Below are positions 9,000 to 50,000 of a DNA stretch of 64,000 nt, piece by piece (within the stretch, counting starts at the first letter, position 1; each line of letters opens with the position of its first letter). Below the pieces are notes generated by a model. It did not search any database and was not told where the DNA came from. It worked only from the letters and a program-made list of their open reading frames with translations. The DNA comes from Amanita rubescens (lineage: Eukaryota; Basidiomycota; Agaricomycetes; Agaricales; Amanitaceae): assembly GCA_015039365.1 (NCBI GenBank), contig WION01000021.1:355350-419349 (forward strand), in the 5' to 3' direction. A program made the position numbers and the translations under genes.

Positions 9000-11900
9000 A
9001 TGTCAGACAGTGAAGTTGAATTCCCACCAAGTATGTCAAAATTTGCGCCTTGGCATTGTTGAACTTTTTCACTGACGTTATCAAATACGTTATACAGACG
9101 AGGAACAGGTTGCATTGCTCAGGGAGCGATACAGGTGTCCTCACTTCCGTATCCTTGTCATTGGAAGGGCCAATGCAGGCAAAACGACTATTCTTGAGAA
9201 GGTTTGTCGTGTGGCAAGGGGAACAATCCCCATCATATATGACAAGGAGGGTTAGTCAAACCAGATTTCTCGCACTGTTTAATATTGAGCATCTATCAGG
9301 CAAACCACTGCAACCTACTTTGACACATTTAATACCATCAATTGAAGTGAGTTGAATGGTGCATATTGGCATATAAGTGTGCTTGTTCACATCTCACAAT
9401 GTTAGAGAGGCATACATGATATTGAGCACCAGATTACATACAAAGGCAGCAACTTCATCTTTCATGACTCTCAGGGCTTTGAATCTGGTGCAACTGATGA
9501 GTTGAATGTTGCTTGGGGATTCATTGACAAGAAATCTGCTGAATCAGAGCTGAGAAACCAGTTGCATGCAATCTGGTATCTTGGGTTATTATTATTATCT
9601 TTTATAACCAGCTCACCAAATATCTCATAGGTACTGTATCCCCATGGACAGTCCTCGTCCACTTCTGCATACAGAACTCCAGTTCTTTCAAAAAGGAACA
9701 GGAAAAGGTTAGTGTTGAAGCTATTTTCTAGTGTATTGATATTTGGTTGGCATTGCAAGTTACTGCTTCACCTTTTTTACTGCTCTGCTGTGCATTAATC
9801 ACACATACATATTAACCAAATACTGACATCTTCACAGTTCCTTTGGTGGTAGTATTTACCAAATTTGATGGTCAAATAGTCAATGAGTATGTCAACATGA
9901 AGGATGCAGAGAATTATGAAGATAAGTGGGACTTAGCAAGGGTGAAAGCTGATGACAGTTTTCAGAGGATTTATCTTCCCAAAGTCTTGGATACTGAATA
10001 TCCTCCCAAAGCATTTGTGCGATTGGCAGGTGAAAATTGTTAACCTTTCTTGCTTAAACAAACTTAGACATGATGATTTTTCACAGATATGGATTTGGAT
10101 GAGAATGACTGTCCTGAATTGACTGAGCAGACTGCTGGTGCACTTGATGATGACATCATTCAACAGCTGTTCATCTCAACACAGATGAATAACCTTGATC
10201 TTTGTGTCAAAACTGCCCTTCAGTGAGGACTGTACTTCTATATAATGCTGCTGCAAATGCTGACTGTTCTTAGACATACCCTGTCTTCTGCATGTCGATA
10301 TGACACATGGATAAAGCAGACTCCTAGAATTCTCAACAAGTTTCCACATTACTGGGTACAATGATATTTTCTAAAAGTTTTGACATGGATGTGGAAAACT
10401 AAACCGAGGATGCAATAGATTGACAGAGAAGTATGTCTCTTTCATATTAGAAGGGAACTAAAAATGATAAATGTAATAGGATGTGAGCACACAAACATAC
10501 TTTGATGCTCAAGTTCTTTAACCATTGCCCTGATGAGCAGGCTGTAAGTAACACATAATACATTGATTATTTTGCTGAGCCATGGTCCTATTTTAACAGC
10601 AAGATGAAATAAATGTGAGCAACATAAACATTCTGTGGTACATGCATTAATATCTTGCATATGTATTAGTGGGTAAATGATGTCAAAGTGGTTGCAACTT
10701 CACTAGATCTGATTTTGTAACCAACAGTTTGTGCGTGATGCATCATTTTACTGCTGGGTTATCTGATCCTAGTCTTACTTAACAGGAAGTAAGTGACATT
10801 AATCACATTCCTGACAGCATCCTCATCATATTTATTATATGGCCAATAGGAGGCGAGTAGTGCTTCCCTATGGGTAAATTCAAACTCATCTTTTGAACCA
10901 TACATATATACAGGCAGTGAGTAGTACTGCACTATTTTATGCCCCACAGTTTCACTTCATCTGAAACTAGAAAGTGAGTAACACACATTTCCACCAGCCT
11001 CATCACCTATCATATGGCCAACAGCAAGTCTGTAACCTAGTGCTTTGTTCCATTAGAAGAGCTCATTAAATGTTGCCCATGATGAACAGGATGTGGGTGA
11101 CATTCAAGTTGTCATTCTTTCTGTCTGTACATCTAATTCTATGATAATAGGCAGTAAGTGGCATAACCCATCACTTGTCCTTGATGACCATATTACATGT
11201 CATCCCATGAATAGGATGTTAGTGGTATTTATTTTGTCCCAGTTAGAGATCTTATGGTCAAAAGGATGTAAGTAGCACTGCACTTCTTGCATCAGAAAGA
11301 CTTGGTCATGGATTATTGCATGACTTGCAGGAAGTGAGTAACATGTTATATTGTCAATTCATCTGCAGGAAGCTGATTTGCTCCCAATTTCCTGTAGAGA
11401 GTAGGCAGTTCTACAAAATCTTTTTCTAGAGTATTTGATACTAACATCACCTACAGGATGTGAGTAGCACTCTTGCATAAAGTAAAGTTTGATCACACCC
11501 ACCCATGACCAATGGCAGTTTGTGAGAATTCTGCAATTTTGTTCTAGGTATTCTGATCACCCCTCTTCCTGTGTCTCCAGTTTGTTAGTCCCATAGTATT
11601 ATTCCCTGACAGTCTCAGCAAGTTAACACTTTATTTCAAATAGGCAGTGAGTGGAGCTACATCATATATTCCCATGCACCAGATATTAAATGCCATTGTA
11701 GGAAGTGAGTAATATGCACATTGCATATCATCAAGATCTAACCTATTGTCAACAGGGGGTGAGGGATTTCTTGTTTTGTTTGCTAACCAATGCTAATTTA
11801 TTGTGGTCAACACTGAACAGACAGTGAGTGACACTCCTTCTCCTCCAATATACATAATCTGATTGCATATGACACATGATCGACAGCATGTGAGTGACAA

Positions 11901-14586
11901 CAGTGGCTTGTCTGTTGCAAATGAATTGATATCATATCCTATTCACAGTGGGTGAGTAACAATAATCTTTTATTTTACAGCTATGTCATAGTCACAATTT
12001 CACAGCATGTAAGTTATGACCATTTATTTCGGTCATGCTCATCCATGATCAATAGAATGTGAGAAATACTGCAAGTTTTCTTGTAAATCCTCTGATCCAT
12101 ATCATGTGCAACAGATTGTAAGTGATACTTCAACTCATCATGAAACTTCATGGCTCACTATACACAGTCAGTGAGTGAAGCTACAAATTATACAAGCTAG
12201 CCAGGCTGCACATCATTTTCATGACAAACAGAATGTAAGCTTTTATCCCATTTATTCTCTGAGGTTGGCTCATCATCTCAATCTACTTACCTAACAGAAT
12301 GTGAGCATACATGCTTTTTAGTGACAGTTCCACCTTATCCTGTGATAAATAGATAGTGTGTGACATTGCTTAGTCTTGTTAAGCAGTCCATCTGATTATC
12401 ACATGGGCAACAGAAAGTAATGACATTATCTCAGGCTTTCCTGCTAAGCAGATTAATCTCATCATGAGCAGTTTGTAGGTAACAATACTTTTTGACCCAG
12501 GCAATTTCATCCCCATTAAACAGGATGTGAGTTTTAACTGCCTTATTTTTTGAAAAATCCTTATCACAACAAACAGAAATATGAAGTGAGTTAAAACCAG
12601 GAATACTTTTGCTGTCTCATCACACAATCAATAGAATGTAAGTAAACAGTTCCAAATTTTGCCCACATACTTCTTACATTCAACCATTGACCCATAGGAT
12701 GTAAGTGACACTGGGTATTCTGCTGCCAGAAAGTCTTAATGGATATCTTATGACTTATAGCCTGTAAGTGACATTCTACTCCTCCAGGAGCTCTCATTAT
12801 ATCATATAATGATGCCAACAGGGAGTGAGCATTATTTTCTGCTTCTTGAGCCTATTATGTATAATAAATCACATACACAACAGTTTGTAAGTGATTTCTC
12901 TTGCAGGGTGATTTTTTCACATCTCTTCCACTATTGAACAGAGAGTGAGAGCACTGTACATTTTTCCTGGAAGTAAATCTCATGTATCTGGTCATACAAC
13001 TGACAGGGAGTTAGTAATGTTTCATGATTTTTCAAAGGGAGACTTATCAAAGTCATATCTATCTATTTATCTATCAATAGGGAGTAAGTTGACATGTTTT
13101 CCTGAGAAGGCTGCAATCTCATCACAAATCTTCTTACAAACAACAGGGGGTGGGTGACATACTATTTGTGTTTATTAAATAAGTTTCATCCATTTTGGCT
13201 TATGACCATCAGTCAGTGAGTGATATTATGCTTTAATCTATGGTGACATATTAATTACATCTCATGTCTTAAAATGTCAGAATGTGAGTGACAGAAATGC
13301 AAGCTGAAGCAGAATTTTCATTGTATGACCATCAGGAAGTGAGTGTCACTTGATTTTTGGTAGTGACATTATTTCTCATGTGTGCAATATTAATAAATAG
13401 GATGTGAGTAACATTGTAACAGTTTTCTCAAGCTATTTTCACAACTCATACCTTGGTCAAAGCAAGTGAGTTATGTTTGCCCTTATGTCTGTTGCTTGTC
13501 TAATGGTGGACAGTTTGTGAGTAAGAGCACACAATTTAAGCTGATTGATTTTATTCCATGACCAACAGTTTGTGAGTGGCTCACATGATATTGCTGGGGA
13601 GATTTTGTCTCATGACCAACAGTTTGTGAGTAACCCTACACATGTTCTACTAGGTAACTTATGCAATCTTGCACAATGAACAGGGAGTGAGTTACATTGT
13701 GAATTGATGTCTGCTTTGGCAACTCTCATCAACTGTCATCTCATGATGAATAGGAAGTAAGTGATTATGTGCACTTTCCTGTCTGAGAGTTGTCTGATTT
13801 AAGGACCAACAGCAAGTAAGTGACATAAAACATTTCTTCTTAGTCTCATTTCATTTCATCTGATGAACAACAGAGAGTCAGTAAATTTGCACTCTTATCA
13901 GTATAAAATCCTATCAGAACTCATCCCATGAACAGGATGTGAGCAAGACCCCTTTCTCTGATTAATGCATCCTTCTTATGTAAATTTAACAGAAAGTGAG
14001 ACCATCAGCTTTGTACTAGTATTTTATACTGCTGATATTATCATAAATAGATTGTAAGAAATGATGCCTTTGCAATATTCCTTTCTGATGGCTTTCCCTA
14101 TTACTTACCTCTCTAGGTAAGTATTGGCAGTTCAAGGTATAGAAAATTTCATGCTAATTTGTATGCAGTTTGTATGTTTGATGTACATGGGATATTTTGC
14201 TCTTGCTCATGGATAGTCTGTATTTTTCTCCATGTTTGGAGGGAAAAAAACAACAAAATTTTCACCAAAGGTAAGAGGTGCTTATGTCTGTGGAGTACAA
14301 ATGATAGTAACATAGACAGCCTTCAACCTGCCAAATCATAGTTGGTAATATAACTGATTCAATTTATATTTTCTTTGGTTAACTCTATGCAGCAATGATT
14401 ATCATTTGCAAGCTGTCATTCTGGATAAATAAGCCATTCAAATATTCAATCATTGAGGCTTTAGACCAATTCAAGAGCCAAGGATATGAGAAGAAGCTGA
14501 AGACTAGCATTACTTCCCTGTCCCTGCCCAAAGATGGTGATGAATTGCTTAAATTCCTGTATGATCTGATTAAGGACAAGTTCTGA
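9000..14586 (+). CDS. G-domain GTPase, copy 1, with microexon chain
   Basis: A P-loop GTPase of the AIG1/HSR1-like G-domain type that is abundant in mushroom genomes; the cellular role is unknown. N-terminal exons: 9000-9030, 9098-9250 (P-loop GRANAGKTT), 9300-9346, 9406-9575 (HDSQGFES, the DxxG motif), 9631-9707, 9838-10029 (TKFD, the G4 motif), 10087-10222, and 10274-10354, which ends KFPHYW in phase 0. Next comes a 12-nt exon (10419-10430), then about 60 mostly 3-nt exons up to about 14216. Then follow a 54-nt exon 14217-14270 (FFSMFGG), a 3-nt exon 14342-14344, and a last exon 14393-14586 (KLSFWINKPF, then a charged tail). The stop is at 14584-14586. The phase at the last join is unresolved: the final exon needs phase 1, but the exons I assigned give phase 0, so one exon near 14100-14340 is mis-called or missing. 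A shorter product ending in the stop TGA at 10223-10225 is also possible if the 10223 donor is not used. Confidence 0.75.
10419..14216 (+). repeat. Tandem single-codon microexon / mini-intron array, copy 1
   Basis: A chain of units, each a complete minimal intron: a GTRAGT-like donor, 45-70 nt, a branch-like TGAC/TAAC/TGAT element, and an AACAG/AATAG-type acceptor, with three bases before the next donor. I count 61 candidate exons by hand: 58 of 3 nt plus one each of 12, 15 and 9 nt, all multiples of three. Examples: 10670-10672 TGG, 10728-10730 TTT, 10786-10788 GAA. Intron interiors have diverged beyond recognition, so a repeat alone would not explain why the two borders and the 3-nt spacing stay intact. 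Donors are mostly GTGAGT or GTAAGT; one near 10850 is GC (GAG|GCGAGT). No unit codon is a stop, and none of the 3-nt exons ends in C. Confidence 0.8.
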
Positions 14587-22175: not shown

Positions 22176-25100
22176 ATGACATCAAACACAGCTACAACTG
22201 GTGCACTGTCCTCAGTATCTCAGGATTGCTAATCCTTGACTGACATATGAGATCCAGATGAGACACAAGTTCAATTGCTCAGGGAACGTTATCTATGCCC
22301 ACACTTTCGCATCCTTGTCATTGGGCGGGCTAATGCAGGCAAGACAACCATCCTTGAGAAGGTTTGTGGTGTAGCAAAGGGGACAAAGCCCATCATATAT
22401 AACATGGATGGTAAGTTGGTCTGAGTTTTGTGCTTCCTTTGAATGTTGAGTTTCTTGCAGGTAATCAGCTTGAACAGTCTGATAATCATTTGATGCCATC
22501 AGTTGAGGTGAGTCAGATAATGATGTATGGTTGTACCCATTCATATGCAATGATAACAGAGAGGCATGCATGATATTGAGCACCAAATTACATACCCTGG
22601 AAGTAACTTTATCTTCCATGACTCTCGGGGTTTTGAATCTGGTTCAACTGAGGAGTTGGAGATTGCTTGGAAGTTCATTGAAAAGAAGTCTGCAGAAACT
22701 GAGCTGAAAAACCAGCTGCATGCAATTTGGTATCTTGCCTTATCCCTTTACAGTACTGTCTGACCTAGCTTCCTGTAGGTACTGTATACCCATGGATAGC
22801 CCTCGTCCCATTCTACCTGCAGAACTTGAATTCTTCAATAAAGGGACAGGAAGAGGTAAGTCTTAATGAATGTATATCTTGTAACTTGTTGGTTTTGGAA
22901 AGATTGTTTACCCTTAACTATTGTCACCTCCTTTCCATTGGCCAACTTGCCACAAAATTTAGTAGTACTGACTAGTAAACATTTCCTTTACAGTTCCTTT
23001 GGTGGTTGTATTCACTAAATTTGATGGTCAAATAGCCAGTGAATTTGTCAACTTGACTGATGCAAAGGATGAAGATAAGTGGGAGACAGCCAGGGAACTT
23101 GCTGAAATCACTTTTCAGAAAGTTTATCTTACTAAAGTTTCAAATGCCAAATATCCTCCTAATGCATATGTGCGGTTGGAAGGTGAGAATGATGAGGATT
23201 TCCTCCTGAAAAGTGGGAGTAATGTTGTTGCATAGACATGGATTTACCAGAGAAGAATTGTGCTGAATTAAGTCAGCAAACTGCTGATGCAATAGATGAT
23301 AAAAGCATACATCAGCTGTTTGTTTCAACTCAGATGAATAATCTTGACCTTTGTGTTAAATCTGCACTTCAGTGAGGATCACATTCGAAATGTTACTTAC
23401 TAACATTGACATTGTTCAGACAAGTTCTGAAAGATAAAAAAGTTCGGCAATGGGATGATGTCATTCTCATAGTTTTTTCAAAATTTCCACATTTCTGGGT
23501 ATGCATTTTTGTCAGACTGCACATTGGCATAGGAAAATTTAAATGATGATAGGTGAAGAGGAAGGTAGGTGGCCTTCATATGGAATGATAAATATTTGCC
23601 AAAGTTCATCAGAAGGTAAGCAATACTCCAATGCTTCACATGAAAACAAGATTAGTCATGCTTCAGAAGGCCAATGAACAACTGACTGAAGCACAAGTTA
23701 GTTGTCAACCATATTCTTAGTGGGAGCATCTGATAATATTGATATCAGTGGGTAAGTGACATTGAACTAGTAGCATAGATCCGATATACAATGATGGTCT
23801 CATGACAATAGTTTGTGAGTAATGTTTCCCTTTGTGATCAGCAGTCTTGTCCTATGTATAATCTGCAGGAAGTGAGTGACATGACTCAATTTTGATTTTT
23901 GGTAAATGATACTATGGTGCATCATATGACCAATAGCAAGTGAGTTAATCTATCATTGTAAGCAGACTTGTCAATCCAGTCTTTCATGGACAGGGAGTGA
24001 GTAATACAACACTGCTTCACACTGCATCTGACCTGCTTAAAGAGAGTAAGCAACATTGATATTTGTGCAGCTTATCAGACATAGCTCAATGAACAACAGA
24101 AAGTTGGTGACATGCTATTATCTGAAAGAGGAGTCTCAATAAATTTGATTGGATTAATAACAGGAAGTAAGTGAGATTTGCTTTCTGTCTGCTTATAAAC
24201 ATTACATCTCAAAACAACAGGCAGTAAATATTTCTCCTATTCAAAGCCTCTTCACAAGCTAATGCAAAACAAACAGGATGTATGTGATCCTTTTGTGAGA
24301 TGTGAATTTATCATGTGAAATACCGTGGCAAAAGACAGTAGCATTGTTTTCTTTTTTCCCAACTCATGATGCAAATTCTATTCTAAAAGGAAGTGAGTGA
24401 TGCTGGCCACTTTGCTACAGGACAATTTGGATACATTGTTTTGTTCTACAGATTGTGAGCAATATTGCAAGTTTTGTGAAAACTGGTGAAATCACATCTT
24501 TTCCTATGAACATAGAAGGTTAGCAGCATGTCACATTGGTTTAGTGTTTCAAAAGATGGCCTTATCAAAAAATTGCCTATGGCCAACAGTATGTGAGCAA
24601 CATTGCAAATATTTCTTAAAAGCTGCTTTATGTATTTTTTTCCTATGACTGACAGCATGTGAGCAACATTGAACATTTTGTAGAAGACAGTCCAAGTCTC
24701 ATCACATCTTTTCCTATGACCAACAGGAAGTAAGTGACATTGCACATTTTGTGAAAGGCAGTCTCATCACATTTTTCCCTATGACCAACAGGGAGTGAGT
24801 GACATTGCACATTTTGTGAAAGGCAGTCTCATCACATCTTTTCCTATGATCAACAGCAAGCAGTGAGTGACAGTGCACATTTTGTGAAAGGCAGTCTCAT
24901 CACACCTTTTCTTATGACCAACAGCGAGTGAGTGACATTGCACATTTTGTGAAAGGCAGTCTCATGATATCTTTTCCTATGACCAACAGCGAGTGAGTGA
25001 CATTGCACATTTTGTGGAAGGCAGTCTCATCACATCTTTTCCTGTGACCAACAGGTTGTGAGTGACATTGCACGTTTTGTGAAAGACAGTCTCATCACAT

Positions 25101-28100
25101 CTTTTCCTATGACCAACAGATTGTGAGTGACATTGCACATTTTGTGAAAGGCAGTCTCATCACATCTTTTCCTATGACCAACAGGGAGTGAGTGATATTG
25201 CACATTTTGTGAAAGGCAGTCTCATCACATTTTTCTTATGACCAACAGCATGTGAGTGTCATTGCACATTTTGTGAAAGGCAGTCTCATTGCATCTTTCC
25301 TATGACCAACAGCTTGTGAGTGACATTGCACATTTTGTGAAAGGCAGTCTCATCACACCTTTTCTTATGACCAACAGGAAGTGAGTGACATTGCACACTT
25401 TGTGAAAGGCAGTCTCATCACATCTTTTCCTATGACCAACAGGATGTAAGTGACATTGCACATTTTGTGAAAGGCAGTCTCATCACATCTTTTCCTATGA
25501 CCAACAGCATGTGAGTGATATTGCACATTTTGTGAAAGGCAGTCTCATCACATCTTTTCCTATGACCAACAGATGGTGTGTGACATTGCACATTTTGTGA
25601 AAGGCAGTCTCATCACATCTTTTCTTATGACCAACAGCAAGTGAGTAACATTGCACATTTTGTGAAAGGCAATCTCATCACAGTTTTTCCTATGACCAAC
25701 AGACTGTGAGTGACATTGCACATTTTGTGAAAGGCAGTCTCATCACATCTTTTCCTATGGCCAACAGATTGTGAGTGACATTGCACATTTTGTGAAAGGC
25801 AGTCTCATCACATCTTTTCCTATGACCAACAGCGAGTGAGTGACATTGCACATTTTGCAGAAGGCAGTCTCATCACATCTTTTCCTATGACCAACAGCGA
25901 GTGAGTGACATTGCACATTTTGTGAAAGGCAGTCTCATCACATCTTTTCCTATGACCAACAGCTTGTGAGTGACATTTGCACATTTTGTGAAAGGCAGTC
26001 TCATCATACAGTAACCCTCAAAACCGTTCCAATGTTTGGCCATCTTGAAAAGATTGACCAACCACACAATGGGAAACTTTTATAAAATTAGTAGAAATTA
26101 GTAGATGATAGAATAGCATCTAAGCTTGAATTTGAGCATATACCCATGTCAATTGAGTCAGTAGTCCATGAGATATAAAATGTTTTGTGAGGCAATGTCA
26201 TTGGAACGGTTTTGTGGCCGACATGGTGGGATGACAAAACCGGTATCTAGCAATTATATGACAGTGGTGAAAGTCATGCTACAATGTTGAATAACCTTAA
26301 TATGTCTCAGATAAGTGCTTGAAATGCTTACATTGCATCAGTGTACCCTCCCAGGTGACCAACTGCCTCCTCTCACACCCCTGGCTATTCTTGCTATGAA
26401 GTCTCAACCATGAGTGGCTACAACATCCATATTGTATCCAATCTGCATTTAATTCACTTATTCTTCCTCCCAGTGACCACTGGAGGTGGGCCAAAGCAGC
26501 TGACGGGCCAAATAGCCCAGTATCCCAGTTACCTCTTTGCTTCAAGGAGGGTGGTGTCAGGTGTAGAAGTGACTAGGGCACTTCAAACTATCATGAATGG
26601 GTACCACTCCACAGATGCAACAATGTGGAATGTAAGGAGGACAGAGATAAAGGCTGTGGTGGTGTCTAAGAAGCCATTACTCACTGCAAAGCATACAGTG
26701 GAGATGCCTAGCTGTGATTAGCACATAAGGATTGGACAATTGAGAGCTGGAACAGGGTCATTTAATGATATATGACCAAAATCAATTGTCTAGAGTCAAA
26801 TGAGGGGATATGAGCCTGGATGAGGGGAAGGGAGGAGCTGAGTGACAGGTGGGTATGGGGGATGTCAAAGTTCACAGGTGAATCAACATTTCTATGAGGA
26901 CATATGATATAGGAGGGACCCATACTTGCTTACAGGATGGATGGGGGGAGGGATAGGTAACTTTATATCACCATTCTGAAGGATAGCCTTGAAGCCAGCT
27001 TTGATTACTAAGGCAGGAATTTTGAAGTCAGCAGGACAGTGATCAAAAACACACTTGTGAGAGGTCAAGAGCTGGTCTAGTAAACACAGAAATGCAGAAG
27101 AAGTGTTTCTAGTACAATTTGAGGATGGTACCTACATTGTGACTAGCCCTGGCTGACACTTCATATTCAGAATGACAAGATGCAAGAATACAGGATGACA
27201 TCCACCTGGGAGGGTACATTGATGCAATGTAAGCATTTCAAGCACTTATCTGAGACATATTAAGGTTATTCAACATTGTAGCATGACTTTCACCACTGTC
27301 ATATAATTGCTAGATACCGGTTTTGTCATCCCACCATGTCGGCCACAAAACTGTTCCAATGACATTGCCTCACAAAACATTTTATATCTCATGGACTACT
27401 GACTCAATTGACATGGGTATATGCTCAAATTCGAGCTTAGATGCTATTCTATCATCTACTAATTTCTACTAATTTTATAAAAGTTTCCCATTGTGTGGTT
27501 GGTCAATCTTTTCAAGATGGCCAAACATTGGAACGGTTTTGAGGGTTACTGTATCTTTTCCTATGACCAACAGCAAGTGAGTGACATTGCACATTCTGTG
27601 AATCACACCTTTTCCTATGACCAATAGGGAGTGAGTGACATTGCACATTTTGTGAAAGGCAGTCTCATCATATCTTTTCCTATGACCAACAGGTTGTGAG
27701 TGACATTGCACATTTTGTAAAAGCAGTCTCATCACATCTTTTCCAATGACCAACAGGATGTGAGTGACATTGCACATTTTGTGAAAGGCAGGAGTCTCAT
27801 CACTATGACCAACAGGATGTGAGTGACATTGCACATTTTGTGAAAGGCAGTCTCATCACATCTTTTCCTATGACCAACAGTTTGTGAGTGACATTGCACA
27901 TTTTTTTGAAAGGTAGTCTCATCACATCTTTTCCTATGACCAACAGCTTGTAAGTGACATTACACATTTTGTGAAAGGTAGTCTTATCACATCTTTTCCT
28001 TTGACCAACAGCAAGTGAGTGATACATTAGATGTTTTACTCTATCTCATTTGTAGTTTCAACTTCTCTCCATGTTTGGAGACCAGCAAAGCAACTTTGAA

Positions 28101-28441
28101 ATCAAGGTATCTTTGTTTTTTTTTATCTGGGCAGTACACAACTGAGACCATTGCAACAAGCCCACTCATTGCCAGATTTTAGTTTGTAAATTACTCCCTT
28201 TTCATTTCCATATTTATGCTTAAACTTTCAAGCAATTATTATCATTGCCAAACTATCCTTTTGGATCAATAAACCACTTCTGCCCTCAGTCAAAAAAGCC
28301 TTGAATCAATACAAGCAAAATGGTTATGTTCAGAAACTGAAAACTGACATTACTCCTGACTTTATGGACTCTGGTCATCAAGATTTGGTCACATTATTTT
28401 ATAGGCAGGTGACCCACCTTGATGGTAGGTACTTTGTCTAG
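22176..28441 (+). CDS. G-domain GTPase, copy 2, with homogenised microexon chain
   Basis: Paralog of the gene at 9000-14586. Exons: 22176-22200, 22258-22410 (P-loop GRANAGKTT), 22461-22507, 22560-22729 (HDSRGFES), 22779-22855, 22994-23182 (TKFD), 23236-23371, 23420-23498 (ends KFPHFW, phase 0), 23553-23564 (12 nt), 23613-23615 (3 nt), 23667-23696 (30 nt, KANEQLTEAQ). About 44 further, almost all 3-nt, exons follow to 28019, then 28056-28106 (LLSMFGDQQ), a 3-nt exon 28193-28195, and a last exon from 28233 (KLSFWINKPLLPS) to a TAG at 28439-28441. The exon order matches copy 1 step by step. A 1.5-kb transposon sits in one mini-intron. As in copy 1, the phase of the final join is unresolved. The first donor (ACT G|GTGCAC) is weak but gives the conserved DETQVQLLRERY start. 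Confidence 0.75.
23553..28055 (+). repeat. Tandem single-codon microexon / mini-intron array, copy 2
   Basis: Same architecture as in copy 1. The first part (23565 to about 24600) has diverged introns. From about 24650 to 25980 and again 27560 to 28010 the introns are near-copies of one about 60-bp unit: donor GTGAGTGACATTGCAC, middle GTGAAAGGCAGTCTCATCAC, end TTTTCCTATGACCAACAG. The three bases between successive near-identical introns differ from unit to unit (for example GAA, GGA, CGA, GTT, ATT, CAT). One exon is 6 nt (CAAGCA at about 24857). I count 47 candidate exons, all multiples of three, none containing an in-frame stop. The unit ends in a plausible branch site (TATGAC) about 8 nt before AG. 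Confidence 0.8.
26009..27551. mobile_element. Non-autonomous TIR transposon with TA duplication
   Basis: A 1543-bp element with terminal inverted repeats of about 349 bp (26009-26357 and 27203-27551). The ends are CAGTAACCCTCAAAACCG and its complement. It is flanked by TA on both sides (26007-26008 and 27552-27553); removing the element and one TA restores the array's CTCATCATATCTTTTCC sequence, as found intact near 27655. A TA target duplication and CAGT ends suggest the Tc1/mariner group, but no transposase is present. The interior (26360-27200) has a short ORF of unknown nature at 26410-26721. It lies inside a single mini-intron of the copy 2 array. Confidence 0.85.
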
Positions 28442-29254: not shown

Positions 29255-29596
29255 AAATCATAAGACTCTTAACACTACCACACTCGTCTGTCCGTCGTCG
29301 CCCACAACGGACATACAAACTATTCAACGGTTACTGTGCTTGATAGCACTAGTAGCCCACTTCAGATACATTTACCTCCTCACGCTGCACATCACGCGTA
29401 TCCACTACCGCTTGATAAACCCGGACTCGAGGGTTAACGAGATAGAACAGGGACTGCTCTAAACTCAGAGTTGCAGACCTTGTAAAACTACGATTCGCTC
29501 GAGTTTAGGCGTACCTATTCGATCCATAGGAGAAAACGAACTAGAACCAAACGAACAGTATAAAGAACTCCCTTCGTCCCTGTGAAGATAAGAAGA

Positions 29597-30952
29597 ATGC
29601 CGTATACACCGACGGAGGCATTGATAGGAGCATGCGTAGGATTATTGGCCGCATTGGTAGGGTCATTAGCCCCAGCTGCGGTACGAGCGCTCTGGCTGGC
29701 ATTGACCCCGGGAGACCAACGAAATGCGGGACATGGTGTAGCCCGAGCGATAGGAGAGATAAGAGAGGCGTTCAGAGAACCTCCCAGACCCCCCAGACCA
29801 CAGATGAAGATCGATCCGCCAGAAGCGTACGAAGGCAAACCCAAAAAGATAGCGCATTGGCTGAGATCGATGAGAGCGTACTTCTCATTGACGGAAGTAC
29901 TTAACAGTAGCCAAATGATCGCAATCGCCCTCCAACAAATAAAAGGAGGAACGGCGAACAGAGCAGAGAACTGGGCGGGAGTTAAACTACAAGAATTCAT
30001 GGAGTTTATAGAAGAAGTAACGAACACACCGAGAGCAAAGGACTACACATGGGAGCAATTAAGGACAGGAGTAACACCAAGAGCAGCGGTAGTAGGAGTG
30101 GTGTCACCAACAGGAGAAATGAGGGTAGAACCGAGAGCAGCAGAACTAGGAATCACGCCATTCACCCACCAACCACCATTTGACAGTTGGAACGACTTCG
30201 AAGCAAAGGGGTTAGCGTTCTTTATGACCACGGAGACGAGAGATGAAGCGATTAGACATCTGAGAGAGTTGAAACAAGGGAAAAGACCAGTGGAAGATTA
30301 CATCATCGACTTCAAGAGTTGGGCGCAACTAACAAATTTCAACGAAATCGCGTTAATCACCCAGTTCAAAGGAGGGTTGAACCCGCCACTAGGAATGAAG
30401 ATAGTAGAAAACGGAGCACCTGGAGATGGAGCAATGGCGGGGGATTTACAATTATGGTACGAACGAGCAACGGTGTTGGACAAGGCATGGAGGGACGGGC
30501 AGAAACTATATGGAACAACGACCCGACTTCCATTTAGACCCAGATTCTTCCAAAGTCCCACGTCAACGCCACAGGAGACGAAACCAACTGCGGCAGCCAC
30601 AGGGGCAACAGTTTCAACAGCGATCCCTTCGGGATTGGGATCTGATCCAAACGCCATGCAAATAGATCGCCAAAGAGGACCGGTCAAATGCTACAACTGC
30701 AACCGATTTGGACACATATCAAGAGAGTGTAAGGAACCAAGGAGAGAAAGAAGAGAAGTAAGAGAGTGGACGATGAATGCACCCAAGTGTGAGAACTGCG
30801 GAAAATTAGGGCACATGACGGAAGCGTGTTGGGGACCGAAGAGAGAAGTGAAAGAAATAAGAGAAGTAACGTGGAAGGAAAGGATCGAGGGGGCAACGGA
30901 AGAAGAAAAGGTGGAGATAGCAACGTTGATGGGTTTTCAGAATGGTCAGTAG
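29597..30952 (+). CDS. Retrotransposon Gag with two CCHC zinc knuckles
   Basis: About 451 residues from the first ATG in a good context (MPYTPTEAL). It has an N-terminal hydrophobic stretch, a capsid-like centre ([39 protein letters not shown]), and two nucleic-acid-binding knuckles near the C terminus, [14 protein letters not shown] and [14 protein letters not shown]. It forms the particle that packages element RNA. The frame is open throughout. Confidence 0.9.
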
Positions 30953-30986
30953 ACGTATCTCCAACGATACTGGCCGAAGAACGTTA

Positions 30987-31536
30987 TGTTACGACCCCTG
31001 ATGTATGTACAATACGAGGATTCTAAGCTGAATATTGATTGCATTATGTATGAACTCAGAGGGTTAGAACATAAATGGAGGAACAAAAAGATAACGACAA
31101 AAAAAGACAGATTAGAAATGTGGAAAGGACCATGGACGGTGAAATGATCAGAAGAAGGCCGGTGCGGAAGTGCGTTCGGCCAAAGGGACTACGGAGGTCA
31201 GTCCGAAGGGAGTCTCGGGTGCAGAGAGGGTGCCGAAGATGAAGGTGAATGAGTGGAAGGTGTCCGAAGCACCGAGGAATGAAAGGAACGGAAGGAATCG
31301 AACTCGGAACGAAGCTGGGGTGATAATTCGCTAACTACAACTACGTACACAATGGTATATATACTACGGAGGCATGAGGTGACCATGTGATGAATCCTGC
31401 ACCGAGCCCGAGGCCTGTGCATGCGTCCGAACTCAAACAATCATCCTCCGGGGTCGAGTATAGGCTCAGAGTGCTTCGGGGAGCTTCGGAAGGTTTCGGA
31501 GATCGGTTCCAACGTAGCCGGAATCGGCTCGTTACA
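30987..31536. mobile_element. Probable nested solo LTR of another element
   Basis: A 550-bp block between gag and pol that is foreign in composition and has no retroviral coding. It begins TGTTACGACC and ends CTCGTTACA, with a TATATATAC box inside near 31363. TG...CA ends and these termini are typical of fungal LTRs. The flanking bases (ACGTT left, ACGGT right) match at four of five positions, so the target duplication is imperfect or my boundary is off by a base. Removing it brings ILAEER close to VRRVWEQPEE, a plausible continuous gag-pol frame. Confidence 0.55.
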
Positions 31537-34500
31537 ACGGTGAGAAGGGTGTGGGAACAACCAGAAGAAATAGCAGTGCAAAGTCTAAGACAATGGGTAC
31601 ATAAAACGAGAGAAGGGGAAGTGACAGCAGAAATGGTGAATGCGTTGAACGGAATGACGGAAAAAAATGCATTGTGGCAATTGCAAAACTTAAAGACGAA
31701 AGAACATTACGTTCAAGGGAGAGGAAAAAACCAAGTAACGGTCAGCAGCGTAATCACCACGCTCAATACCTTTCAGAGACACAAGGTAGAAGTGCTCATC
31801 GACTCGGGATGCACAGGCTCTTGCATTAATGAAAGATTTGTACGACAACATAATCTTAATACACGATGCCTAGACCGACCCATCCCCATCTACAACGCCT
31901 AACTTGGGAGGAGCATTAAAAGAGATGGTACAATTGAAACTGCAAGTAGGAACTCACTACGAAGTGTTTGAATTCGGTGTATCTGCGCTCGGAAAGCTTG
32001 ACATATACTTAGGACACGATTGGTTAAAACATCATAATCCGATCGTAAACTGGAAAACGGGCTCACTCCTTATGAAAAATTGCCCAGGTACATGCCACGT
32101 AGAAGGAGAGGACAACGACGCTATAGACACTGAGGGCAATGACGAGACCGGTGGAACACATGAGTGGGAGGAAGGAGATAGATTGTTAGCAGTAATGGAG
32201 AATGAAGGAACGAGTTGGGGAATAAGAGCTCACGCAACCACGGTGACTGAAATAGCGGTAGCAAATCAAATAAAACGCGATGTGAAAGATATCGTGCCCG
32301 CTCACTATTTAAGTCACCGAGAAGTGTTTGACAAGGAGACGTTTGATGAACTGCCAAAACGAGGAAGATGGGATCACGCGATCGAGTTGGTACCTGGCGC
32401 CCAAGCGGTGGATTGCAAAATCTACCCACTGAATAAGGAGGAACAGGGACAATTGGATGCATTCCTGAAAGATAACCTAGAAACAGGGCGGATAAGAACC
32501 AGCAAATCCCCGATGGCATTGCCGTTCTTCTTTATTAAAAAGAAGGATGGAAAGTTGAGGCTGGTACAAGATTACCGAAAGCTGAACGAGATGACGATAA
32601 AAAACCGATATCCATTACCACTGATATCGGAACTAGTGGATCAACTTAGTCACGCAAAGGTATTCTCGAAGATGGACATCCGGTGGGGGTACAATAACAT
32701 ACGGATAAAGGAAGGGGATGAGTGGAAGGCAGCATTCAGAACGAATAGAGGGTTGTTTGAGCTGTTAGTAATGTTCTTTGGACTTACAAATTCACCGGCA
32801 ACCTTTCAAACGATGATGAATGACATATTTAGAGAGGAAATAGCGGAAGGATGGGTGGTGATATACATGGATGACATATTGGTGTATTCTAAGGATGAAG
32901 AGACACATAAACTACATGTGAATCGAATCTTGGAAAAACTAAAGCGGTATAAATTGTCGTTGAAAGCGGAGAAGTGTTGGTTTGATCAAAAGACAATCGA
33001 ATTCCTAGGATTGATAATATCGCACAACTCAATACGCATGGACAAAGCCAAAGTACGAGCGATATTGGATTGGCCCAGGCCTACAAATAAACGAGAGCTA
33101 CAACAATTCTTAGGATTCGTGAACTTTTATCGACGATTTATACGAGGGTTTGCGAAGATAGCCAAGCCTCTCACATGACTGATGGGGAAAGAAGGATGGA
33201 TGTGGACGGTACTGCAGGAGGAAGCGTTTATAGGGTTGAAGATGAGAGTAGGAGAGGAAGTGATACTAGCGATACCATCAGACAAAGGAAAATACCGAGT
33301 AGAAACGGACGCATCGGACTTTGCCATGGGAGCGGTGTTATCTCAACAACAAGAAGATGGTACATGGAGACCAGTAGCGTTCATCTCAAAATCGTTAAAT
33401 CCCACTGAAAGAAATTACGAAGTGTACGATAAAGAGCTATTGGCAGTCATGCATGCCCTATACGAATGGTCTCACTACTTGAAGGGAACGGAAGAACAGA
33501 TTGAGATTCTAACCGATCACCAAAATCTCACTTATTTCCAAAAACCTCAAAACATCAATCGGAGACAAGTGCAATGGGTATTGGATCTACAGGAATACAA
33601 CTTCATCCTAAAACACAGACCTGGAAAAACCAATACCAAAGCCAACACTTTATCTTGTAGAGCGGATCATGATAAGGGAGAAACGGATAACAAAGGAACA
33701 ACATTGTTGAAAGAGGAATGCTTTGTACGAGTATGGGAGGAAGGAGACGATCTACATAAAATGGAAAACGAGTTGAGAAAGATAAGCCAGAGGCAATGGG
33801 AAGAAAAGGTCAAGAAGGCGGTGGAGAATAAAGAAGATGGATGGCGAGTAAGAGAAGGAGGATTGGTGACGTGGCAAGAGAGAGTGTATGTTCCGAAGGT
33901 CCAAAAACTGCGAGAACAATTCATTGCAGAACATCATCATTGGGGACATTCAGGGATAGATAAAATGATCGAACTGATGCTACGAAACTATTGGTGGCCG
34001 GGAATGAGGAAAGATGTAGAGGACTATGTACGCAGTTGCCGAACCTGTCAGACAGTGAAACCGGACCGACAAAAGAAAGCGGCGCCACTCCATCCCAACG
34101 ACGTACCCAGAGGACCATGGAGCGTCATATCCGTGGATATGATCGGACCGTTACCTGAATCCAAAGGGTTCAACGCGATACTTGTAGTGGTAGATCGGTT
34201 CACCAAGAAAGCGTACTTCATACCCATGAATACGACACTGTCGAGTGAAGGAGTAGCAGTACTATTTCGAGATCACGTTTTCAGAGAACACGGGATACCA
34301 GAGAAAGTAATCAGCGACAGAGGACCACAGTTCGTATCGAGGTTCATGAAGGAATTATACCATGTACTCCGGATCAAAGCCAATCCTTCAACGGCGTATC
34401 ACCCCCAAACTGATGGACAGACCGAATGAGTAAATCAGGAAGTGAAAGAATTCCTAACAATGTTCGTAAATCATCAACAGGACGACTGGAGTGATTGGTT

Positions 34501-35421
34501 GGCAGTAGCCCAATTCTGTCATAACGATCGAGTACACTCGGCAACGGGATTCTCTCCCTTCTTCTTGAATAATGGGCGAAATCCTAACAAAGGACTCAAA
34601 TTGACGATAGAACGGAAGGTGTAGGCGGTAGATGAATGGGTTGATCGACTGGTGGAAGCGTGTGATCAAGCACCACGGGGACTGAACAGAGCGGCGGAAA
34701 GTATGCGAAAACAATATGATAAAAAGAGACAACCAACACGGGATTATCGAGCGGGAGACAAAGTATATATTAGCACTCAAAACCTCCCTTCGTTACGGGT
34801 AACAAAGAAGTTGGAAGGGAAGTTCGTAGGGCCTTACGAAGTAATAGAGAAAGTGGGGTTAGCGGCTTATCGGGTTAGGATACCGGCATCTTGGAAAATC
34901 TACAACGTCTTCAATGAAGTGTTGTTGAAGCCCCATACACCGGCCAAATTCCCGAAACAGAAGGCAAGAGAAGAAGAATGGGATAGGAAGAGGAGGATCA
35001 TACAAAGAGGGACAAGGAATTTGAAGTAGAAGAAGTGATCAATAGTAGACAGAGGATGCAAAAAGAAATGCGAACGGGAAGATTGGAGTATTTGGTGAAA
35101 TGGAAAGGATACCCAAATGAGGAGGCGACGTGGGAACCAGCGGATAACCTCGAAAACGCCCATCGCAAGGTCCAAGCATTTCATAAGAAGAAGCCGAGCG
35201 CGCTGCGACCGCTAGCGATGCCAGCCAAGTTTTTCCAAAGGTATCACAACTATACCGATCCGCCGGTCCACTGACAACTGTTTGGATGGGAAGATGGAAA
35301 GTTTGATGAAGGGTATCTGAAGAACATGAATAAGAAGTGGGCCGAGTGGAAACATATGCGGAAGATGGCAAACGAGGATGATGATTCTCGGGACGAGAAT
35401 CTTGAAGAGGGGGTGATGTAA
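31537..35421 (+). pseudogene. Retrotransposon Pol (PR-RT-RH-IN-chromodomain), broken
   Basis: Domains in order: aspartic protease (EVLIDSGCTGSCINE); reverse transcriptase (LRLVQDYRKLNE, YMDDILVYS near 32865); RNase H (VETDASDFAMGAVL, LTDHQNLTYF); integrase with an HHCC zinc region (HHHWGHSGIDKM ... CRTCQTVKP) and catalytic core (SVDMIGPLP, ISDRGPQF, HPQTDGQTE); a C-terminal chromodomain (LEYLVKWKGYPNEEATWEP). In-frame stops lie at 31900, 33176, 34427, 34622 and 35272, and a one-base shift occurs near 34990. Three stops are TGA or TAG where the family has Arg or Gln, fitting C-to-T change. The final stop overlaps the first bases of the 3' LTR. Confidence 0.92.
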
Positions 35422-37865: not shown

Positions 37866-38293
37866 CATTCTTTCCACCAGCTTCAAAACCTTGGGAGTTG
37901 TGGAAGATGAAGCTGCTCCCTTTGTACTGATACATATGTATGTAATCTGATGCTCAATATCATGTGTACTTTCTTAATAATTTAATATGAATTAGTAGTG
38001 AATACATGATATCAATTTAACTCACCCCAATTGATGGGTTGACATGGGTCTCCGAAGAGTCATCAGGTGATAGTCTTTCACCTAAAAGATTTTGTGGACA
38101 GAGAAACTTTGATGTGATAGCAAGACTGACCACTCTCACGAGTCATACATATATGATGTGGCTCTGTTCCCTTTGCTACACCACAAACCTTCTCAAGAAT
38201 GGTAGTCTTGCCTGCATTAGCCCTTCCCATGACAAGAATATGAAAATGGGAACACTTGTATTGTTCCCTAGTATCTGCACCAACTTCTTTCAC
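37866..38293 (-). pseudogene. GTPase gene fragment, copy 3
   Basis: The minus strand carries an exon with FHILVMGRANAGKTTILEKV (P-loop) at about 38160-38293, remnants reading LSPDDSSETHVN, and a later piece matching the HDIEHQITY exon plus a LPQLPRF-like G3 region around 37870-37960. The order matches exons 2 to 4 of the intact paralogs. TKFD and the later exons are missing, so it is a 5' truncated relic. Confidence 0.75.
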
Positions 38294-38559
38294 ATTTAGA
38301 TCTGTCGCACATTCTTTAAACTTTGACCAGTTGATATGCTAGTGGGTATGACTTACAGGATAGTACAGGTGCACTGGCAATATCAGCCATTGGGGGCATT
38401 ACTTAAGACACACATTGCACATCTCAAAACTGTCTTAATATACTTAAATTTACTTAAGTTGTACAAGTAGTTTAAGTCCAATATAACTGTCACTCAAGTC
38501 AGACCACAAATTCCTGATGGCCAGTTTGGCAGTTATATACTACAACTTGTGTAAATTCA

Positions 38560-45052: not shown

Positions 45053-45540
45053 CCCAAGGTTTTGAAGCTGGTGGAAAGAATGAGTTAGATATTGTTACAG
45101 AGTTTATTGAGATAATTCCACAGCAATGAAACTGGGTATTTCAAATAGCAGATGCAGGGCTGAAACATCTCCAGAATTAAATGTTTTGTGTTTCATGGAA
45201 GATGAAGTTGCTCCCTTCATACTGATACATATGTATGTAATCTGATGCTCAATATCATGTGTACTTTCTTAATAATTTAATATGAATTAGTAGTGAATAC
45301 ATGATATCAATTTAACTCACCTCAATTGATGGTTGACATGGGTCTCAGAGTCATCAGGTGATAGTCTTTCACCTAAAAGATTTTGCAGACAGAGAAACTT
45401 TGATGTGACAGCAAGACTGACCACTCTTATCATACATATATGATGTGGCTCTGTTCCCTTTGCTACACCACAAACCTTCTCAAGAATGGTAGTCTTGCTG
45501 CCCTTCCCATGACAAGAATATGAAAATGGGAACACTTGTA
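45053..45540. pseudogene. GTPase gene fragment, copy 4, internally rearranged
   Basis: About 45193-45540 duplicates 37895-38280 (minus strand: truncated P-loop exon ending KTTILEKVCGVAKG). The adjoining piece 45053-45192, corresponding to the G3 exon (QGFEAGGKNELDIVTEFIE), is in the opposite orientation here compared with copy 3. The P-loop itself is damaged (CHGKGSKTTIL). The fragment ends abruptly at about 45540, where unrelated retroelement-like sequence starts. Confidence 0.7.
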
Positions 45541-45759
45541 TTTGTTATGATCACGTCAATCTCCACCTACGATGTGTCCACGCTAAGAGCGCTTGACAAA
45601 GTAGACTAAGTCCAACGGACAAGTCAAACAATAGGTGAACGAATAAGCTAAGTGATAAGACGACTAGAAGAAGTCTTATCCTTGAGAGCGATAATGAACG
45701 GAGTAGAAACGACGTTCTTTAGGTGAGATGGGATGTGATATTGACAAAGACAAACTAAG
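45541..45759. other. Unassigned repeat-like sequence
   Basis: Starts abruptly (TGTTATGATCACGTC) at the break in GTPase fragment 4 and runs to the LTR. It could be part of another LTR; no coding. Confidence 0.35.
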
Positions 45760-46490: not shown

Positions 46491-47092
46491 AGTTTGAATT
46501 TTTAGTCGGAGTTTGATTATAATGATAACATCTGTTGTAATACTATAGCAACAACCAACAACCACCACCTTTTTGTGATCTGTCAAGCAATAGTGGTGTG
46601 AATACTGCTTGTCTACCATCACCACAAGTGCTGTTTTAATGCACTTAACATGCACCTGCCTACACAACAATGATTGCTGGGTGCTCCCACCACTAAAGTA
46701 CTACCTACTCCCCACTGTCTACCACTATAGAGTCACCATTGGTGCTACCACCACAGCCACTCACTGAGTACTAACAGGTACAACCTTTTGTTGCCCTCAT
46801 CATCTCCATCACTGTGTTTGGATTTGGTTCTATTCCCATGGAGTAGCACAAGTAGTAATTACTACTAATTAGTCTATCTGAACAGTGCAAGTCAGTTTGA
46901 GGCTAGTAGTACAGGTACCACATTGAGCTACTGTATGGTTACTACTATTTTTGACCGATACACTAGTAATTACTGGTACCATTACTGTCTCTACCAGAAC
47001 TTGTGCAGCAACTATGACCACAATGGTCCACTACAACTGCCACCCCCTTGCCACCACTACTGACTCAAAAGGGCTATCATTGTCTACTCATT

Positions 47093-50000
47093 GGGGGTGT
47101 ACCCCTGCAGTTCCCTAGTGTCCTGTCGTCCACCAGGGTACATCGGGGGTGTACCCCTGCAGTTCCCTAGTGTCCTGTCGTCCACCAGGGTACATCGGGG
47201 GTGTACCCCTGCAGTTCCCTAGTGTCCTGTCGTCCACCAGGGTACATCGGGGGTGTACCCCTGCAGTTCCCTAGTGTCCTGTCGTCCACCAGGGTACATC
47301 GGGGGTGTACCCCTGCAGTTCCCTAGTGTCCTGTCGTCCACCAGGGTACATCGGGGGTGTACCCCTGCAGTTCCCTAGTGTCCTGTCGTCCACCAGGGTA
47401 CATCGGGGGTGTACCCCTGCAGTTCCCTAGTGTCCTGTCGTCCACCAGGGTACATCGGGGGTGTACCCCTGCAGTTCCCTAGTGTCCTGTCGTCCACCAG
47501 GGTACATCGGGGGTGTACCCCTGCAGTTCCCTAGTGTCCTGTCGTCCACCAGGGTACATCGGGGGTGTACCCCTGCAGTTCCCTAGTGTCCTGTCGTCCA
47601 CCAGGGTACATCGGGGGTGTACCCCTGCAGTTCCCTAGTGTCCTGTCGTCCACCAGGGTACATCGGGGGTGTACCCCTGCAGTTCCCTAGTGTCCTGTCG
47701 TCCACCAGGGTACATCGGGGGTGTACCCCTGCAGTTCCCTAGTGTCCTGTCGTCCACCAGGGTACATCGGGGGTGTACCCCTGCAGTTCCCTAGTGTCCT
47801 GTCGTCCACCAGGGTACATCGGGGGTGTACCCCTGCAGTTCCCTAGTGTCCTGTCGTCCACCAGGGTACATCGGGGGTGTACCCCTGCAGTTCCCTAGTG
47901 TCCTGTCGTCCACCAGGGTACATCGGGGGTGTACCCCTGCAGTTCCCTAGTGTCCTGTCGTCCACCAGGGTACATCGGGGGTGTACCCCTGCAGTTCCCT
48001 AGTGTCCTGTCGTCCACCAGGGTACATCGGGGGTGTACCCCTGCAGTTCCCTAGTGTCCTGTCGTCCACCAGGGTACATCGGGGGTGTACCCCTGCAGTT
48101 CCCTAGTGTCCTGTCGTCCACCAGGGTACATCGGGGGTGTACCCCTGCAGTTCCCTAGTGTCCTGTCGTCCACCAGGGTACATCGGGGGTGTACCCCTGC
48201 AGTTCCCTAGTGTCCTGTCGTCCACCAGGGTACATCGGGGGTGTACCCCTGCAGTTCCCTAGTGTCCTGTCGTCCACCAGGGTACATCGGGGGTGTACCC
48301 CTGCAGTTCCCTAGTGTCCTGTCGTCCACCAGGGTACATCGGGGGTGTACCCCTGCAGTTCCCTAGTGTCCTGTCGTCCACCAGGGTACATCGGGGGTGT
48401 ACCCCTGCAGTTCCCTAGTGTCCTGTCGTCCACCAGGGTACATCGGGGGTGTACCCCTGCAGTTCCCTAGTGTCCTGTCGTCCACCAGGGTACATCGGGG
48501 GTGTACCCCTGCAGTTCCCTAGTGTCCTGTCGTCCACCAGGGTACATCGGGGGTGTACCCCTGCAGTTCCCTAGTGTCCTGTCGTCCACCAGGGTACATC
48601 GGGGGTGTACCCCTGCAGTTCCCTAGTGTCCTGTCGTCCACCAGGGTACATCGGGGGTGTACCCCTGCAGTTCCCTAGTGTCCTGTCGTCCACCAGGTAC
48701 ATCGGGGGTGTACCCCTGCAGTTCCCTAGTGTCCTGTCGTCCACCAGGGTACATCGGGGGTGTACCCCTGCAGTTCCCTAGTGTCCTGTCGTCCACCAGG
48801 GTACATCGGGGGTGTACCCCTGCAGTTCCCTAGTGTCCTGTCGTCCACCAGGGTACATCGGGGGTGTACCCCTGCAGTTCCCTAGTGTCCTGTCGTCCAC
48901 CAGGGTACATCGGGGGTGTACCCCTGCAGTTCCCTAGTGTCCTGTCGTCCACCAGGGTACATCGGGGGTGTACCCCTGCAGTTCCCTAGTGTCCTGTCGT
49001 CCACCAGGGTACATCGGGGGTGTACCCCTGCAGTTCCCTAGTGTCCTGTCGTCCACCAGGGTACATCGGGGGTGTACCCCTGCAGTTCCCTAGTGTCCTG
49101 TCGTCCACCAGGGTACATCGGGGGTGTACCCCTGCAGTTCCCTAGTGTCCTGTCGTCCACCAGGGTACATCGGGGGTGTACCCCTGCAGTTCCCTAGTGT
49201 CCTGTCGTCCACCAGGGTACATCGGGGGTGTACCCCTGCAGTTCCCTAGTGTCCTGTCGTCCACCAGGGTACATCGGGGGTGTACCCCTGCAGTTCCCTA
49301 GTGTCCTGTCGTCCACCAGGGTACATCGGGGGTGTACCCCTGCAGTTCCCTAGTGTCCTGTCGTCCACCAGGGTACATCGGGGGTGTACCCCTGCAGTTC
49401 CCTAGTGTCCTGTCGTCCACCAGGGTACATCGGGGGTGTACCCCTGCAGTTCCCTAGTGTCCTGTCGTCCACCAGGGTACATCGGGGGTGTACCCCTGCA
49501 GTTCCCTAGTGTCCTGTCGTCCACCAGGGTACATCGGGGGTGTACCCCTGCAGTTCCCTAGTGTCCTGTCGTCCACCAGGGTACATCGGGGGTGTACCCC
49601 TGCAGTTCCCTAGTGTCCTGTCGTCCACCAGGGTACATCGGGGGTGTACCCCTGCAGTTCCCTAGTGTCCTGTCGTCCACCAGGGTACATCGGGGGTGTA
49701 CCCCTGCAGTTCCCTAGTGTCCTGTCGTCCACCAGGGTACATCGGGGGTGTACCCCTGCAGTTCCCTAGTGTCCTGTCGTCCACCAGGGTACATCGGGGG
49801 TGTACCCCTGCAGTTCCCTAGTGTCCTGTCGTCCACCAGGGTACATCGGGGGTGTACCCCTGCAGTTCCCTAGTGTCCTGTCGTCCACCAGGGTACATCG
49901 GGGGTGTACCCCTGCAGTTCCCTAGTGTCCTGTCGTCCACCAGGGTACATCGGGGGTGTACCCCTGCAGTTCCCTAGTGTCCTGTCGTCCACCAGGGTAC

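Follow-up and report, generated by a model that had tools for sequence, protein, structure and literature searches.

A GTPase gene of Amanita rubescens with single-codon exons separated by near-identical introns: a probable frame-safe array of codon and intron units

Introduction

The stretch analysed here (the window) comprises 64,000 nucleotides of the 75.7-Mb Amanita rubescens assembly GCA_015039365.1 (contig WION01000021.1, positions 355,350 to 419,349 of the forward strand) and contains two copies of a GTPase gene. In the second of these (copy 2), near-identical introns of about 62 nt follow one another with three bases between them, and these three bases, here called slots, change from unit to unit. 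The locus raises the question of what the slots are and how introns can stay uniform around bases that differ. Our analysis suggests that the slots are very probably coding and spliced as single-codon exons. On balance we favour a GTPase gene in which a loop of the protein is cut into 44 tiny exons, with the near-identical introns serving as recombination tracks that change codons in frame.

Gene model of copy 2

The predicted model of copy 2 comprises 56 exons and 55 introns, all 55 with GT..AG borders, in a single open frame of 433 residues (the model is partial, the start and end of the gene lying outside it). A total of 43 exons are of 3 nt and one is of 6 nt; these 44 exons are all symmetrical, the array introns are in phase 0, and 45 of the 433 modelled codons are supplied by them. 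An earlier note on this DNA had described about 28 units with near-identical introns and varying three-base slots, and the same number was recovered: 28 homogenised slots, 27 of 3 nt and one of 6 nt (24857-24862), with 20 in block I and eight in block II (Table 1). The feature is more extensive than the interval given for it in the earlier note, single-codon exons with diverged introns starting at 23613 and C-terminal exons reaching 28424. What separates block I from block II is an insertion with inverted repeats, about 1.54 kb in size, in one intron, which is now 1608 nt long; the arms of the insertion lie at 26006-26357 and 27203-27554, and its ends with TA were read by eye. Joined slots of copy 2 translate to the peptide EGQARRVIGHLED, and the predicted joined order is KANEQLTEAQWFEQG, then EGQARRVIGHLED..QGVDDFLQ, then FQLLSMFG. 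That copy 2 itself is spliced into these joined codons is predicted from its sequence.

Analysis of family members revealed a common gene layout, aligned at 16 loci upstream and 18 loci downstream of the single-codon exons (a nineteenth downstream locus, L032, is without the anchor). A GTPase domain ending in KFPHFW is followed by exons of 12, 3 and 30 nt and then by single-codon exons, after which come HELFSMFGDKQKNFAVK, PTDCQVLVS and a hydrophobic exon. PTDCQ is also present in P0121, one of the proteins encoded on contigs of transcript size (transcript-type proteins). The leading single-codon exons are common to paralogues, with TGG (the anchor) in 20 of 20 loci and TTT and GAA in 19 of 20 loci each, and their introns are diverged.

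The pattern CAACAGNNNGTGAGTGACATTG (up to 3 mismatches) gave 38 matches in the window, copy 1 included, compared with a mean of 0.06 in shuffled sequence (n=100). Plain tandem-repeat detection returned the array as a 65-bp repeat and missed the codon pattern. The public protein of the window gene (P0021) ends ahead of the array.

Amino acid coding in the slots

Eight loci were used for per-site diversity, 14 for stop codons and slot lengths and 15 for codon order, mostly one per duplicate group; the initial parse covered 24 loci, and a recount covered 29, that is all loci except L037, whose slots are irregular. The comparison of per-site diversity proposed in the earlier note gave 0.051 for the introns of copy 2 (19 introns of 62 nt) and 0.68, 0.72 and 0.55 for the three slot positions (25 slots of 3 nt). 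At the eight loci the introns have a diversity of 0.022 (267 introns, highest site 0.114) and the slots 0.61, 0.68 and 0.50 (288 slots), which amounts to a roughly 27-fold higher diversity of slot bases.

Not one stop codon was found among 460 slots of 3 nt at the 14 loci, compared with 20.1 expected from base frequencies, and 275 of these slots are one step from a stop; at 29 loci there is one stop in 806 slots, a TGA in L023. Slot lengths are multiples of three in 467 of 472 cases and exactly 3 nt in 460 (14 loci), and multiples of three in 816 of 825 cases at 29 loci. Slots that would create a false donor are avoided (14 loci): NGT occurs once compared with 49.0 expected, and GTA or GTG once compared with 28.9 expected. 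The earlier note had put forward a coding gene with 3-nt exons whose codons are under selection, and the open frame and the avoidance of stops bear this out. Codons ending in A or T account for 442 of 460 slots, compared with 186 of 285 codons in the GTPase exons of the same gene. Pairs of slots with the same residue differ in codon in 0-14% of cases, and 68-94% of slot pairs differ in residue (14 loci). Together these figures point either to selected amino acid change or to a limited set of unit types.

Two loci are irregular in their own ways. L037 (C749:1500-5500) has slots of 0-4 nt between introns that are otherwise the same, and is a decayed copy or an assembly error. L014 (C13:578621-588620) consists of nearly only CAA, CTA and CGA codons and has two 2-nt slots and one 4-nt slot (one more of each in another parse).

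Transcript-type proteins and splicing

Evidence for the splicing of single-codon exons comes from copy 1, a member of the same family with diverged introns (mean identity to the 62-nt master intron 48%, 48 introns). The protein P0148 has 295 aa and is encoded on a JGI contig of 1107 bp. From KFPHYW onwards it agrees with copy 1 in 160 of 167 residues through 65 exons across 4.2 kb; because 1107 bp is too short for the 4.2-kb genomic stretch, the contig can be read as cDNA. The slot peptide of copy 1, derived beforehand without P0148, scores 94 against it, compared with at most 12 in 500 shuffles, and a protein-guided fit of the copy 1 loop placed 59 of 61 residues, compared with at most 33 of 61 for eight shuffled loops. 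Against the protein-free slots of copy 1 the order of P0148 is unbroken from DERDFF to EQRDKI. One slot in the protein-free parse reads TGA; GAA before GTGAGT is equally readable there, and P0148 has E. The fit needed an odd pair of exons, of 7 nt and 2 nt, for one residue near the array start. Five of the seven mismatches fall in the last exon, so P0148 may stem from another haplotype, a paralogue or a close species. The GTPase-exon match of copy 1 carries one TAA.

For copy 2 the comparison is shorter: P0154 (198 aa on 1213 bp) has WFEQGRKEMD, and copy 2 reads WFEQGRKEAD across ten consecutive single-codon exons. When 19 transcript-type proteins were compared with the slot peptides of the loci retrieved, P0148 with copy 1 was the only convincing pair (score 96, compared with 11 for the reversed peptide). 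All others scored at most 18 (reversed up to 11), with P0130 and P0012 at the top, probably owing to the common W-F-E start or to chance.

These data bear on two alternatives. The first is that tiny exons are skipped variably, which would give many loop lengths per gene as in schistosome micro-exon genes. Single-codon exons are frame-neutral and the loops of transcript-type proteins differ in length, as such skipping would have it; P0148, the one protein that could be tested, follows the slots of copy 1 in unbroken order. We consider variable skipping improbable as an account of the array, and it is compatible with codon exchange between units rather than exclusive of it. The second is that the array is a non-coding minisatellite or belongs to a dead gene, with a codon pattern that is accidental. 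The TGA slot in L023, slots not divisible by three in L014 and L037, the insertion inside the array and the end of P0021 before the array agree with a dead gene; the unbroken frame through 56 exons, the avoidance of stops and splice sites, the conserved 5' microexons and the transcript-type match for copy 1 speak against it and make it very improbable.

A single intron sequence across arrays

In all 13 arrays compared, the majority intron sequence of 62 nt is identical. The microexon zone adjoining the arrays, fetched for all but two of these loci, is 74-99% identical in the pairs listed. Among eight older arrays, seven (L012, L019, L020, L021, L022, L024 and L025, with 86-91% identity to the master) have a consensus that is 0-1 sites off the master, and the consensus of the eighth, L010 (mean identity 80%), differs at 12 sites, mostly one shared deletion. 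The most uniform case was L030, which has 25 introns of 62 nt: 23 are letter-identical to the master, one departs from it at a single site and the most 5' one at 21; the ratio of slot to intron diversity is 337 without the most 5' intron, and including it the intron diversity is 0.028. Because intron detection relied on resemblance to the master, loci whose introns are very different from it would escape, as copy 1 does. Intron length differs from 62 nt in 137 of 538 introns (14 loci), in 74 of these by a non-multiple of three.

Such uniformity could also be explained by introner-like invasion, in which an exon that was once contiguous was split repeatedly, codon by codon, by insertion of a mobile 62-nt intron; this is one of the two explanations given in the earlier note. 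The genome has 525 matches to the 65-nt unit, arrays of differing age share a consensus, as would be expected had one master seeded them, intron variants are loosely linked to codons, and the loop is contiguous in transcript-type relatives, at least at the level of the presumed transcripts. Free insertion, however, would give any spacing, whereas 460 of 472 slots are exactly one codon long. The excess of codons ending in A or T over ordinary exons likewise argues against invasion, as do, within the listed part of the 525 matches, the 24 arrays (C298 included), all of which adjoin a GTPase of this family, the single-codon exons with unrelated introns in copy 1, and the unit-sized insertion or deletion between duplicates described below. 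Insertion of mobile introns into an existing exon is poorly supported by these observations, and we regard it as unlikely.

Codon turnover between sister genes

Comparison of the 5' flanks and codon strings of 17 A. rubescens loci gave 21 pairs that are at least 96% identical in the flank. Fifteen pairs are of distinct sister genes (flanks 97.6-99.6%), and in 15 of 15 the similarity of the codon strings lies within the range of 60 shuffles; these pairs reuse loci and are not independent. The other six are duplicate pairs (L015, L017 and L018 mutually, L027/L029, L033/L034 and L025/L026), all of which keep 83-100% of their codons, L025/L026 being alike at 26 of 28. The earlier note had suggested conversion among introns together with selection holding the codons. 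Conversion lies near the reading favoured here; the holding of codons does not agree with sister genes that are about 98% identical in the flank and have unrelated codons.

Differences between duplicates fall mainly in the slots. In L017/L018 there are 4 differences in 108 slot bases and 2 in 2232 intron bases (Fisher 6e-5), and in L015/L018 there are 5 in 109 slot bases (plus one gap) and 3 in 2234 intron bases (plus two gaps) (Fisher 1e-5). No slot substitution was found in L027/L028 or in L027/L029, and L029 is without one complete 65-bp unit that is present in L027; the slots of L033/L034 are identical. In an older array, L034/L038, 25 of 27 slots are kept, both changes are CAA to CTT and the preceding intron changes length each time, the introns differing at 19 of 1724 bases. 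The three near-identical pairs with any codon substitution have seven in total; in five of these more than one base (two or three) changes, and one substitution, CTA/CTT, leaves the residue unchanged. Replacement of whole codons is better explained by copying from another unit than by mutation of single bases. The array of L038 (C134:33800-40800), a haplotype-like copy of the L033/L034 array, has an extra stretch of about 2.8 kb within it.

A mutator targeted to codons, which would rewrite the three bases between introns directly and spare the introns, is a further alternative. The introns of L030, almost all identical to the master beside diverse slots, agree with it, as do the replacement of codons between near-identical copies with introns nearly unchanged and the near-random order of codons. 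The rarity of synonymous codons means that slot bases do not mutate freely, 25 of 27 slots are preserved in the two haplotype-like copies of the older array, whose introns diverge by about 1%, and all six duplicate pairs retain most codons, so slots are not constantly hypermutable. Such a mutator has, in our estimate, a small chance of being correct.

The rewriting of codons by recombination between units under selection is somewhat favoured by the data. The unit would be one intron plus one codon, and matching introns would guide exchange between units, so that codons could be swapped, gained or lost unit by unit with the reading frame intact. Gene conversion at the level of the unit, together with unequal exchange, may rewrite the codons while homogenising the introns. 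Selection would favour amino acid change and purge stops and false splice sites. The tiny exons of the array, which lies between the GTPase domain and the hydrophobic C-terminal part, would be spliced together into a loop, and this loop may recognise something variable, for example non-self.

Several observations weigh against this reading. Slots that are not multiples of three number five of 472 at the 14 loci (two of 2 nt, two of 4 nt and one of 7 nt) and nine of 825 at the 29 loci, and L037 is full of odd slots; the off-length slots and L037 are possibly pseudogenes or assembly errors, and three 7-nt slots of the 24-locus parse look like donor ambiguity. The transcript nature of the JGI contigs is deduced from their size. 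Comparison of transcript-type proteins with slot peptides gave no transcript assignable to any homogenised array, and a 192-residue query that included the L027 array likewise returned no transcript from it. A search for codon cassettes (leaving out L011, with a single detected intron) found no codon string common to non-duplicate loci, the eight of 378 pairs that stand out all being duplicates, so no donor was caught. Linkage between intron variant and codon is loose: on the left 77 of 436 pairs are the same, compared with 64 expected, and on the right 88 of 432, compared with 68, which is weaker than plain duplication of units predicts. It reaches p<0.05 in L027 (left) and in L013, L016 and L019 (right), and not in the other loci tested. 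Equal neighbouring codons are modestly in excess (88 of 420, compared with 65.7, 15 loci). Finally, codons would be spared by homogenisation only under strong selection. Weak linkage and a constant master sequence are not fully explained by recombination between units and constitute the main open points.

The variable loop and its family

Comparison of the transcript-type proteins P0027 and P0031 revealed that most of the GTPase part and the C-terminus are near-identical and that the residues between NYYVD and REILPELFS are unrelated. This hypervariable stretch coincides with the position of the array, and loops vary in length among transcript-type proteins. A contiguous form of the peptide in relatives, which the earlier note had looked to, was found in these transcript-type sequences. 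The same note had described the peptide as helix-like, and this was not confirmed: the structure model of P0027 has a mean predicted local distance difference test (pLDDT) score of 82.1 with residues 315-350, in the variable stretch, below 50, for which disorder is predicted.

The composite protein alone had no match in Pfam. The 41 relatives compared match 13 Pfam families, MMR_HSR1 in 27 of 41 and NACHT in one of 41 (E 0.0091), and no WD40 family is among the 13. Matches to the GTPase exon in the assembly number at least 150, haplotypes included, and suggest a large family in this common forest symbiont.

Comparison with known systems

Schistosome micro-exon genes are fast-evolving families with very small frame-neutral exons (PMC4350168). 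The exons of the array differ from these in being nearly all one codon long, with introns that are copies of one 62-nt sequence, in a fungal GTPase; moreover, most of the coding sequence of a micro-exon gene lies in tiny symmetrical exons, which does not hold for copy 2 with its 45 of 433 codons. Aphid bicycle genes are rapidly evolving and have many unusually small internal exons of one phase, almost all phase 2 (PMC9168663), whereas the introns of the array are phase 0 and its exons one codon. Micro-exon 8 of Drosophila hth is an exon of 3 nt for which splicing in vivo is known, and the borders are CAG-exon-GTGAGT or GTAAGT (PMC7392893); hth has one such exon, and here tens occur consecutively. 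Immunity-related GTPases (IRG), in which a G domain is combined with the IRG helical domain, were a further system considered.

Fungal introner-like elements are near-identical spliceosomal introns in hundreds of copies in unrelated genes (PMC4457414). The arrays share the near-identity and the copy number (525 matches, diversity 0.022), but not the unconstrained insertion sites (460 of 472 slots exactly 3 nt), and all 24 arrays among the matches listed are in one family with one-codon spacing. The HNWD NOD-like receptors of Podospora (het-d, het-e) resemble the arrays in having homogenised units with few hypervariable codons. What is conserved in the unit of those receptors is WD40 coding sequence, whereas here it is an intron, and a single codon makes up all of the coding part; the NACHT and WD40 domains of HNWD-type proteins are not typical of this family (no WD40, NACHT in one of 41 relatives).

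Other features of the window

The positions of the features are shown in Table 1. The consensus units of the two 52-bp minisatellite arrays look like reverse complements of each other.

Table 1. Positions of copy 1, the parts of copy 2 and other features in the window.
Feature	Position	Strand	Basis or remark
Copy 1, same family: 65 exons (56 of 3 nt)	10338..14583	+	Matched by transcript-type P0148
Copy 2, GTPase domain, 7 exons (P-loop GRANAGKT, FTKFDG), ending ..KFPHFW	22252..23498	+	Open spliced frame; NCBI record P0021; first exon(s) outside model
Copy 2, 12-nt exon (23553-23564), 3-nt exon (23613-23615), 30-nt exon KANEQLTEAQ (23667-23696)	23553..23696	+	16-locus alignment
Copy 2, 13 single-codon exons W F E Q G R K E A D E I K, diverged introns	23749..24518	+	Gene model; P0154 order
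Copy 2, single-codon exons TAT, CAT; introns partly master-like	24590..24658	+	Gene model
Copy 2, homogenised block I: 20 exons (19 of 3 nt, one of 6 nt), near-identical 61-62-nt introns	24727..25965	+	Gene model
Insertion resembling a miniature inverted-repeat transposable element, within an array intron, TA each side	26009..27551	+	352-nt arms, 99% complementary
Copy 2, homogenised block II: 8 single-codon exons Q G V D D F L Q	27574..28014	+	Gene model
Copy 2, C-terminal exons FQLLSMFGDQQSNFEIK, PTHCQILVS, IIIIAKLSFWINKP.., in frame with array	28056..28424	+	18-locus alignment; 3' end of gene not fixed
Presumed retrotransposon frames: gag-like with zinc knuckles, reverse transcriptase, integrase	29564-35274		Names based on motifs
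Fragment resembling the start of the same GTPase family	38078-38338	-	
Fragment resembling the start of the same GTPase family	45317-45544	-	
52-bp minisatellite, first long array	47089-50582		67 copies, 98-99% matches
52-bp minisatellite, second long array	51477-57388		113 copies, 98-99% matches

Significance

Arrays of single-codon exons were not described in the literature titles and abstracts searched, which covered few subscription papers or preprints, and nothing on microexons in Amanita turned up among them. Runs of tens of 3-nt exons challenge models of splicing, and P0021 shows how gene finders miss such regions. Whether identical introns persist because they serve recombination can also be put to a concrete test in these arrays. 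We suggest, tentatively and with somewhat more doubt than conviction, that this GTPase family possesses a built-in means of hypervariability, in which a recognition loop is rewritten codon by codon as a fungal counterpart, by way of the spliceosome, of the hypervariable loop of antibodies. If true, this would constitute a new route to protein diversity, in which the variable letter is one codon and the recombining repeat is the intron.

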